A stretch of DNA of 41,372 bases from NCBI GenBank assembly GCA_019456075.1, contig VRUN01000006.1, positions 1 to 41,372 on the forward strand, written 5' to 3'. Of the stretch, positions 31,519-39,251 are shown piece by piece (the first letter of the stretch is position 1; every line of letters starts with the position of its first letter). The position numbers and the translations under genes were made by a program. Under the pieces are notes generated by a model. That model was not told the origin of the DNA, searched no databases, and saw only the letters and a list, made by a program, of their open reading frames with translations. The DNA comes from Candidatus Methylomirabilota bacterium. Its GTDB lineage: Bacteria; Methylomirabilota; Methylomirabilia; Methylomirabilales; CSP1-5.

Positions 31519-31588
31519 TGGTTCACGGTTCACCGTTCACAGATTGGGGTCCGCGATTGGTGTTAGGTGGTTCGTGATTAGTGGGTGA
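31519..31588. repeat. 7-nt periodic intergenic tract
   Basis: Ten contiguous heptamers: GGTTCAC GGTTCAC CGTTCAC AGATTGG GGTCCGC GATTGGT GTTAGGT GGTTCGT GATTAGT GGGTGAT. Confidence 0.75.
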
Positions 31589-31695
31589 TGGTGGACGTCA
31601 TCGAGACCTGGCTGTGGTACAAGCGGACGAAGGAGGTGGATCCGGTCCGGCTCCGGCCCCATCCGTACGAGTGTGTCTTGTATTTCGATCTATAG
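31588..31695 (+). CDS. Candidate 35-aa micro-ORF
   Basis: [35 protein letters not shown]; followed by a strong terminator; no clear RBS. Confidence 0.3.
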
Positions 31696-31750: not shown

Positions 31751-31817
31751 GATTCCATTTCCAATGTCTGCATGAAGGCAGTTGACCTCATCTGGGCCTC
31801 CCAGTAATGTGGGGAGC

Positions 31818-32489
31818 ATGGGAACGCGGATCCTCGATTTTCGGTTCGGGCTCATCGATCTTGAGGGTGTGATCTTCAACCCTGGGATTCTTTACCGGCG
31901 GGAGTTCGGTCGGTTCCTGCAGGGACGGTACAATATCTCAGCGAAAGAGGCCCTCGTCTTCTACCAGGCCCATGAGGCACTCCCCCTGGAAGGGAAGTTT
32001 GATCGCCTCCTTGCCCAGCACGGCCGTCCACCGGGAGAGACGGCTGAGGCGGTTACCGCATTTCGAACGTCTGTGGCAGCGTCACGGCCGGTTGTTTCGG
32101 AAGGGGCCAGGGAGCTCTTGGAGATCCTGGTTTCTCGAGAGGCACAACTGTTTGCCCTGTCCGAGGCAGAGTCCCGGATCGCCGATGTCAAGATACAAGA
32201 GGTGGAGCTGCGGAATTTCTTTGGGCATATGATAGGGACCGAACACGCTCCGCGAGGGCGCGGGCAGATCGCGTTCTGTGGAGACGTCGTCGGGCTGCCG
32301 CTTGAAGCCTTTGCCGGGCAAAGTTTCGTTCTCGCCAGCAGCCCTGAGGATGTCGTGGCGGCGAGGGAGCTCGGGTTCTACAGTATCGGTATCGCTCATC
32401 TGTTTCCAGAGGACGCCTTGAAGGCGCATGGGGCTCACGAGGTGTATCGGCATATTGCCTACCTGTCTCTGCACCTCCGCCATGCTTAG
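31818..32489 (+). CDS. HAD-superfamily hydrolase-like protein with atypical DxE nucleophile motif
   Basis: FGLIDLEGVIFNPG in motif I position; FCGDVVG; SSPEDVVAARELGFYSIGI in motif IV position. Confidence 0.65.
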   Translation: MGTRILDFRFGLIDLEGVIFNPGILYRREFGRFLQGRYNISAKEALVFYQAHEALPLEGKFDRLLAQHGRPPGETAEAVTAFRTSVAASRPVVSEGARELLEILVSREAQLFALSEAESRIADVKIQEVELRNFFGHMIGTEHAPRGRGQIAFCGDVVGLPLEAFAGQSFVLASSPEDVVAARELGFYSIGIAHLFPEDALKAHGAHEVYRHIAYLSLHLRHA

Positions 32490-32510
32490 AACGGCTATCA
32501 GACGCAAACC

Positions 32511-32670
32511 GCTAGCAGGCTGGTAAGCTAGCATGCTGGCATGCTAGAAAACCAGGAAAGCAGGAAACATCCAGAGTTCTACCTCGCTAGCGTACTAGCG
32601 TTGTGGCTTTCCAGCCTTCTAGCGTGCTAGCCTTCTAGCTTTCTGGTGCGGACCGCTGACTGCTGGTTTT
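32511..32670. repeat. 8-nt periodic CTAG-rich intergenic tract
   Basis: Octamers GCTAGCAG GCTGGTAA GCTAGCAT GCTGGCAT GCTAGAAA ACCAGGAA AGCAGGAA ... CTCGCTAG CGTACTAG CGTTGTGG CTTTCCAG CCTTCTAG CGTGCTAG CCTTCTAG CTTTCTGG; eight CTAG tetramers. Confidence 0.85.
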
Positions 32671-32679
32671 AGGGTCGGG

Positions 32680-33258
32680 ATGCGCGAAGAGGACGCGATC
32701 ACACAATTACGGGAGGGAGAGGATATGGCACGCCGTCAGGCTGCCGACCTGCTGGGGGCGATCGGCCGGGCTCAGGCTGTGGAACCGCTGGTTCAGGCTC
32801 TACAGGATGAGGATTGGGGGGTGCGAACCATTGCCGAGCGCTCGCTGTGGCAAATCTGGTGTCGGTCTGGCGATTCAGCGGTAGATGCCCTGCTGCAGGA
32901 AGGAATCCACGCCTTGGACCAGAGCGCGTGGGCGGAGGCGGTCGCTCAGTTCACCACGGTCATTGAGAGGGCTCCCGAATTTGCCGAAGGGTATAACAAG
33001 CGGGCGACCACCTACTACGTGATGGGGGAGTATGCGCAGGCCATCGCCGACTGTGAGGCCACGGTCGCCCGGAATCCGTACCACTTCGGGGCTTTGAGTG
33101 GGGCAGCGCAGTGTTACCTGGCCCTGGGCCGGCTGGAGAAGGCCCGGGACCTATTCCGGAGGGCCTTAGCGGTAAACCCCAACATGCCGGGGGTGGAGCA
33201 GAATCTCGCTGGCGTTGAGCGTTCCCTGCGAGGCGGCGGCAATGGGTCCCATTCGTAA
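32680..33258 (+). CDS. HEAT-repeat + TPR protein
   Basis: ARRQAADLLGAIGRAQAVEPLVQALQDEDWGVRTIAERSL (HEAT) then AEGYNKRATTYYVMGEYAQAIADCEATVARNPYHFGALSGAAQCYLALGRLEKARDLFRRALAVNP (TPR). Confidence 0.85.
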   Translation: MREEDAITQLREGEDMARRQAADLLGAIGRAQAVEPLVQALQDEDWGVRTIAERSLWQIWCRSGDSAVDALLQEGIHALDQSAWAEAVAQFTTVIERAPEFAEGYNKRATTYYVMGEYAQAIADCEATVARNPYHFGALSGAAQCYLALGRLEKARDLFRRALAVNPNMPGVEQNLAGVERSLRGGGNGSHS

Positions 33259-34696: not shown

Positions 34697-34838
34697 AGCC
34701 GTCAGCAACTCTCCAGCGGTCAGCGGCCAGCAAAAATTCAAACCTACCAAGAGCACCCTAAGCTGATCGCTGACGGCTGATAGCTGATAGCTTCAAAAGC
34801 TGCTGACCGCTGATCGCTGACTGCTGATGGCTGGTTTT
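34697..34838. repeat. 7-nt periodic intergenic tract with inverted heptads
   Basis: GCTGATC GCTGACG GCTGATA GCTGATA GCTTCAA, then GCTGACC GCTGATC GCTGACT GCTGATG GCTGGTT; opposite-strand heptads near 34699-34732; 11-bp inverted repeat CAGCGGTCAGC/GCTGACCGCTG. Confidence 0.85.
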
Positions 34839-38805: not shown

Positions 38806-39251
38806 GGCCGGAGTGGGCCGGGTGGTCGCTCCGATCTGTAGATCGGGGAGGAAAGTCCGGACTCCGCAGGGCAGGGTGGTGGGTAACGCCCACCGGGGGT
38901 AACCCCAGGGAAAGTGCCACAGAAAATATACCTCCCCGCCGGCAGCCTTTGCTCTCTTGCTTCAAAAAGGCTGTCCGCGGGGTAAGGGTGAAAAGGTGCG
39001 GTAAGAGCGCACCAGCAGTCCGGTGACGGGCTGGCTTGGCAAACCCCACCCGGAGCAAGGCCAAATAGGTTCCGCTTCCTTGCTGTCGTTCATCGAGCGA
39101 GGGCGAGGATGAGAGCGGCCCGCTTTCATGGCCAGAAAGGCAGGCGGAACGGGTAGGCCGCTAGAGTCCCGCAGCAATGCGGGACCCAGAGGAATGATCA
39201 CCCTTCGCCTGCGGGCGAAGACAGAATCCGGCTTACAGGCCCACTCCGGCC
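38806..39251 (+). ncRNA. rnpB: RNase P RNA (bacterial class A)
   Basis: GAGGAAAGTCCGGACTCC; GGTAAGAGCGCACCAGCAG; GGCAAACCCC; ACAGAATCCGGCTTACAGGCC; perfect 14-bp P1 GGCCGGAGTGGGCC/GGCCCACTCCGGCC. Confidence 0.97.

Follow-up and report, generated by a model that had tools for sequence, protein, structure and literature searches.

The stretch of DNA analysed here (the window, 41,372 nucleotides in length) belongs to a genome of the bacterial phylum Methylomirabilota that is assembled to 1.78 Mb in 102 contigs and is 93% complete. Within it, the spacer between two codirectional genes, the first encoding a protein of 235 residues and the second a HEAT- and TPR-repeat protein, is mostly occupied by a tract in which the tetramer CTAG begins at positions 32512, 32528, 32544, 32587, 32595, 32619, 32627 and 32635 (eight occurrences in 127 bp), and in which the remaining points of the same lattice, at 32520, 32536, 32552, 32611 and 32643, are taken by CTGG or CCAG. 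An earlier note on this DNA had described such a lattice of eight CTAG tetramers, spaced by 8 bp within about 130 bp and filled in by CTGG and CCAG, and both parts of that description were borne out: ten pairs of these tetramers are separated by exactly 8 bp, whereas in 2000 dinucleotide-shuffled versions of the tract the number averaged 0.13 and never exceeded 3, and no place in the window that does not overlap the tract was among the best for this spacing. The GCTAGC and GCATGC palindromes that the note mentioned were likewise found. Its remark that CTAG is rare, making its density here striking, also stands, and CTAG is not common in this DNA: within the window, to which (together with the pattern searches) these counts apply, the tetramer is depleted (27 observed, 75.5 expected), and eight of the 27 lie in the tract.

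Table 1. Layout of the tract, its flanking remnants and the adjoining genes in the window
Feature	Positions	Strand	Description
Upstream gene	31782..32489	+	235 aa; no Pfam match; stop codon 21 bp before the left arm
Outer left period-7 lattice remnant	32490..32510		GGCTATCAG...; identified from its sequence and from orthologous spacers
Left arm	32511..32566	+	GCTRGNAN octamers: five clear (32511-32550), then two decayed (ending at 32566)
Centre (loop) between the arms	32567..32575		Edges approximate, because the innermost units are decayed
Right arm	32576..32646	-	GCTRGNAN on the opposite strand (NTNCYAGC on the + strand)
Outer right period-7 arm remnant	32650..32666		GGACCGCTGACTGCTGG, GCTGAYN units
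Downstream gene	32680..33258	+	192 aa; HEAT and TPR repeats; ortholog in 7/7 genomes of the genus

The phase shift reported in the middle of the tract is real, but it proved to mark the point at which one arm gives way to another of opposite orientation (Table 1). The clear octamers of the left arm read, in order, GCTAGCAG, GCTGGTAA, GCTAGCAT, GCTGGCAT and GCTAGAAA, and the right arm consists of two blocks (32576-32599 and 32608-32639), separated by a single decayed unit, and a final CTGG at 32643. Outside the left arm, where the window retains only a remnant, the genomes G002 and G006 carry an intact arm of RTCAGCN units. An Rfam search of the window gave no match to the tract and matched only RNase P (a class A RNA at 38810-39251 on the + strand); a search of a plasmid collection likewise gave no match to the tract, and the sign of a terminator in the window was limited to a single weak site of 5 pairs within the right arm, with 0.2 expected. 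Another period-7 palindrome, GGTTCACGGTTCACCGTTCAC ... GGTGTTAGGTGGTTCGTGATTAGTG, lies about 1 kb upstream of the tract (31520-31592), and two identically oriented blocks of GCTGAYN heptads lie between two genes at 34761-34835, matching an RTCAGCN lattice pattern that is found across the order.

A search for similar 8-nt lattices, as the note had suggested, showed that inverted octamer arrays form a dispersed intergenic family, to which the tract contributes one copy; the note had recognized the unusual 8-bp lattice, and had missed the inverted arms, the location between genes and the family. Further copies in the same genome were found in the hisH-hisA spacer (gene names assigned from sequence) on contig C4, and on contigs C85, C97, C1 and C45. 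A three-unit pattern matched all seven genomes of the genus, between 5 and 71 times each, with no match to a reversed control pattern; it matched 0-2 times in other sampled genomes of the order and not at all in the rest of the class sampled. The genus was judged to include NC10 bacterium CSP1-5, NC10 SPGG6, Methylomirabilis sp. MAG-BB-18 and isolate nzgw238, and three loci from other families of the order (L044, L053 and L054) appear to be genuine inverted elements. CTAG lattices elsewhere in bacteria are mostly one-directional, and those of Psychromonas, Stenotrophomonas, Vibrio and some Deltaproteobacteria, which are one-directional tandem repeats, look unrelated. In Nocardia, Amycolatopsis, Mycobacterium and other Actinobacteria (L074, L078, L088, L094, L103, L111 and others), the sequence GCTAGCATGCTAGCAAGCTAGC, with three CTAG tetramers spaced by 8, was observed just before the start of a gene, where the start region on the opposite strand contains a conserved CAGTTCAACGT; this sequence may be the operator of an autoregulated small DNA-binding protein. 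No description of CTAG or octameric lattices, or of repeats in NC10 bacteria, was found in the open-licence literature, and a family of mirror-image repeat arrays in this uncultured group is apparently undescribed.

The comparisons that follow use the sequences alone, from incomplete assemblies with mechanically called genes, and because the elements were gathered by pattern, their conservation is partly ascertained. In units that follow two perfect ones, and that were themselves left unconditioned, conservation is 81-97% at positions 1, 2, 3, 5 and 7, position 4 is usually a purine, and positions 6 and 8 are nearly free; CTGG stands in place of CTAG in approximately 36% of units. The variable letters are hardly shared between neighbouring units, and simple tandem duplication alone was ruled out on that ground.

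The arms contain 2-10 units each, with a median loop of 33 bp and a median span of 100 bp, and their relative orientation is strongly biased: among 72 neighbouring pairs less than 130 bp apart, 67 are convergent, four direct and one divergent. By the mechanical gene caller, 57 elements lie between genes that are codirectional (42), convergent (10) or divergent (5), with divergent spacers under-represented relative to other spacers of at least 50 bp (single-test p = 0.049). Between codirectional genes, the array begins at a median of 7 bp after the stop codon and ends at a median of 23.5 bp before the next start; one element (L194) lies, by inspection, between two tRNA genes. Although 52 of 69 elements stop all six reading frames, a function in providing such stops was rejected, since an 8-bp spacing of CTAG produces them in any case and, read in one direction, certain replacement lattices have none. 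The elements do not resemble intrinsic terminators, which are GC-rich hairpins with a T run behind them: a T run adjoins an end in 7 of 69.

Across 13 locus pairs, with small counts, one comparison of orthologous arms gave a divergence of 3.5% at core positions, 19% in the flanks and 29% at variable positions, and a second gave 9.1%, 24% and 38%, respectively; in the closest pair, none of 190 core sites and three of 115 variable sites had changed, with flanks diverged by 4.3%. The faster-evolving positions of the unit are R4, N6 and N8. Whole 8-bp units have been gained and lost between G003 and G006, and at one locus (L206/L275) a 47-bp centre has opposite orientations in different species, between flanks that have remained collinear. 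The loops of non-orthologous copies have no convincing homology, their matches being between orthologs except for a few of 11-15 bp. At one G006 locus (L256, compared with L211 of G003), an insertion of approximately 195 bp with several hairpins, ATTATTCAC...GTGAATAAT, adjoins a GCTAG inside an open reading frame; it is unrelated to the lattice and possibly a small mobile element. At another (L259), homology with L205 and L212 is limited to the flank on the right, and gene order appears to break at the lattice-filled spacer.

Orthologous spacers differ in content between relatives: they may hold an octad array, one of several heptad lattices, both types in a nested arrangement, or no array (all heptad lattices except RTCAGCN were identified by eye). 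In the spacer that precedes the TPR gene, octads flanked externally by heptad remnants are present in G000 and G004; in G005 heptads lie beyond an octad arm; G001 retains a short remnant; G002 and G006 have an RTCAGCN palindrome made of heptads alone; and no array is present in G003. In the seven genomes, the hisH/hisA spacer contains octads accompanied by a heptad remnant, heptads of the RTCAGCN type, or RTCAGCN arms that enclose or adjoin GAGACNG heptads, and the spacer before a gene starting MAKKV (probably rplK) contains octads in G001, heptads in G003 and G005, and a nested arrangement in G004. An ATCACNA-like lattice stands instead in G000 at the L193 spacer, by inspection in an atp-type operon, and G001 and G005 have different lattices at L190/L280 despite approximately 94% identity at the locus. 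Where G003 has octads (L216), a G006 locus (L261) contains CTCTCCG-like and CGAAATY-like heptad lattices. Heptad arms that lie outside octad arrays share their orientation in all 12 cases, with none opposed. When the octad arms were removed, the spacers of the genus still displayed autocorrelation peaks at 7, 14, 21 and 28, with none at 7, 14 or 28 in coding DNA; the RTCAGCN lattice was found in 29 of 60 genomes searched, throughout the order, and in no sampled genome from the remainder of the class. Allelic exchange with other lineages may account for some of the replacement: at the TPR site, G003 differs in the end of the upstream gene as well. The swaps between close relatives point to an active process that would operate at the level of DNA.

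Whether the arms act by pairing with each other was examined in registers set from their outer ends. The elements fold much better than their shuffles (mean z -4.3; -2.76 for the tract in the window), and fold slightly worse than copies in which R4, N6 and N8 had been redrawn (mean z +0.44, s.e. 0.10). Selection for pairing in a transcript would leave R4 free in the 5' arm and T3 free in the 3' arm, through G.U wobble, yet the two arms behave alike: R4 shows no difference between them in its use of A and G (p = 1.0), its combinations comprise 40 A.C and 39 G.U, and T3 is nearly fixed. RNA-wobble selection at R4 was ruled out on this evidence. In a DNA cruciform T3 and R4 would be equivalent, yet T3 is nearly fixed and R4 free; pairing between arms at N6 and N8 was not found in registers from -4 to +4. 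This asymmetry would be best explained by recognition of an oriented GCTRGNAN in DNA, and from the behaviour of the variable positions we infer oriented arrays of DNA-level sites arranged in a palindrome, rather than an RNA hairpin.

The reading that we favour, with a probability of roughly 0.4, is that the octamers are oriented sites in double-stranded DNA for a sequence-specific, cooperative factor, and that the convergent arms form a palindrome that is acted upon. Each octamer would be read by the factor, which would bind cooperatively along the array in the manner of ribbon-helix-helix proteins on operator arrays of 7-bp or 8-bp units; the factor, or a recombination machinery, would then act on the palindrome. 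Slippage would cause arrays to grow and shrink, inversion would occur through the arms, and arrays of other unit sequence would replace the octads, sometimes in nested form. This reading is favoured because of the excess of convergent over divergent arms, the constraint on the core, the equal behaviour of R4 in both arms, the finding that redrawn copies fold slightly better, and the gain and loss of units, the inversion and the replacement described above. Against it stand the failure to detect RHH_1 in the window's own genome, the setting of arm registers from the outer ends, the partial ascertainment of conservation and the possible origin of some swaps by allelic exchange. A further difficulty is that a convergent layout shared by arrays of differing unit sequence is easier to understand if pairing itself matters.

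That difficulty introduces the main rival, a purely structural role, in which the arms would pair into an interrupted stem (in intercistronic mRNA, or in single-stranded or cruciform DNA) that protects the 3' end of the upstream message or tunes the next gene, such that lattices could be swapped freely as long as they pair. The convergence of 67 of 72 arm pairs, the folding of the elements, their location just behind stop codons with fewer divergent spacers than expected, and the persistence of complementarity among lattices of different sequence all fit such a role, which is nevertheless opposed by the lack of selection for pairing at variable positions and by the way R4 varies alike in both arms and T3 in neither, at odds with both RNA wobble and DNA pairing; we regard it as possible, though distinctly short of even odds. 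An origin as non-autonomous mobile elements of the REP or MITE type, spread by a transposase, would account for dispersed copies that are optional between species, for the empty spacer in G003 and for nested arrays, but the unrelated loops of non-orthologous copies leave no common master copy, a GTRG head lies within 8 nt outside an end in only four of 69 elements, and the Y1 transposase family (PF01797), present in five other genomes of the genus, was not detected in the window's genome or in G004. Such an origin is judged unlikely, and membership of the REP/RAYT class proper was ruled out, since the head, the transposase (in the window's genome) and a shared interior are all missing.

Neutral expansion and decay of functionless tandem repeats would accommodate both the whole-unit differences between G003 and G006 and the perfect, recent repeats that form some arms (such as that of G005:C132). 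It is opposed by a core that diverges less than its flanks in orthologous copies, by the differing rates of core and variable positions, by variable letters hardly common to adjacent units and by a convergent order of 67 to 1, and we consider it improbable. Nor is the tract a product of simple microsatellite decay, which the earlier note had named as a possible refutation, because most unit positions are under constraint in dozens of copies from several species. Least plausible of all, and very improbable indeed, is the idea raised in the same note that a CTAG-specific methylase or Vsr-type repair acts on the tract or gave rise to it: the concentration of an otherwise depleted CTAG in the tract would agree with it, but CTAG is only one state of GCTRG, more than a third of units having CTGG, and lattices free of CTAG occupy the same, orthologous spacers.

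The contiguous units of 7 or 8 bp with fixed and free letters, a trait of ribbon-helix-helix operator arrays, recall two known systems. The met boxes of MetJ are tandem 8-bp operator units that are bound cooperatively; the met box is itself palindromic and is found in a few met promoters, whereas the unit described here is asymmetric and its arrays lie behind stop codons. The omega (ParB) protein of plasmid pSM19035, a ribbon-helix-helix protein, has six sites on a single plasmid, composed of 7-10 contiguous, non-palindromic WATCACW heptads, in which some letters are fixed and others free, arranged as both direct and inverted repeats (PMC9499535); the present family resembles these in its units, but occupies dozens of chromosomal sites with the unit GCTRGNAN. 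RHH_1 (PF01402), the sole ribbon-helix-helix family searched for, was not detected in the window's genome or in G004, so the resemblance is one of likeness and not of membership.

Among dispersed repeats, REP and BIME elements are similarly intergenic, palindromic and mosaic, variable between close strains, and separated by unrelated sequences (PMC2817692). A REP is formed by a single imperfect palindrome that carries a GT(A/G)G head and has a RAYT transposase linked to it; here the arms are instead arrays of degenerate 8-bp units without that head, in a genome where the transposase family was not detected. The TAACTGA heptamers of Beggiatoaceae also form many short intergenic sets, of unknown function (PMC4679880), but they are nearly all exact direct copies of one fixed unit, upstream of start codons and without inverted arms; assignment of the present family to that type was rejected, its unit being GCTRGNAN in inverted arms. 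Double-hairpin and palindromic repeats of mitochondria (PMC7218506, PMC2800124) are likewise optional intergenic palindromes of short repeats that vary between close species, but they are organellar, those of Fusarium consist of mononucleotide runs, and they contain no degenerate lattice of 7-8 bp.

Small intergenic palindromes are usually ascribed to a transposase or to RNA structure, and neither fits well here, because conservation of the core is that of an oriented DNA site, nearly all arms converge, and close relatives can carry arrays of different sequence at the same gene junction. As a tentative proposal, held at less than even odds, Methylomirabilales may possess a dedicated and undescribed system that fills gene spacers with nested, exchangeable palindromic arrays of degenerate 7- and 8-bp units, with at least half a dozen unit sequences; the position would be kept while the identity of the array turns over, so that an active machine would be working on these sequences at the level of DNA, and they would not be fixed regulatory sites. 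Should an active process be responsible for the exchange of arrays, it would represent a new way for the operon spacers of bacteria to evolve; a protein that reads the lattice, if there is one, would act genome-wide in an almost entirely uncultured phylum that contains methane oxidisers.
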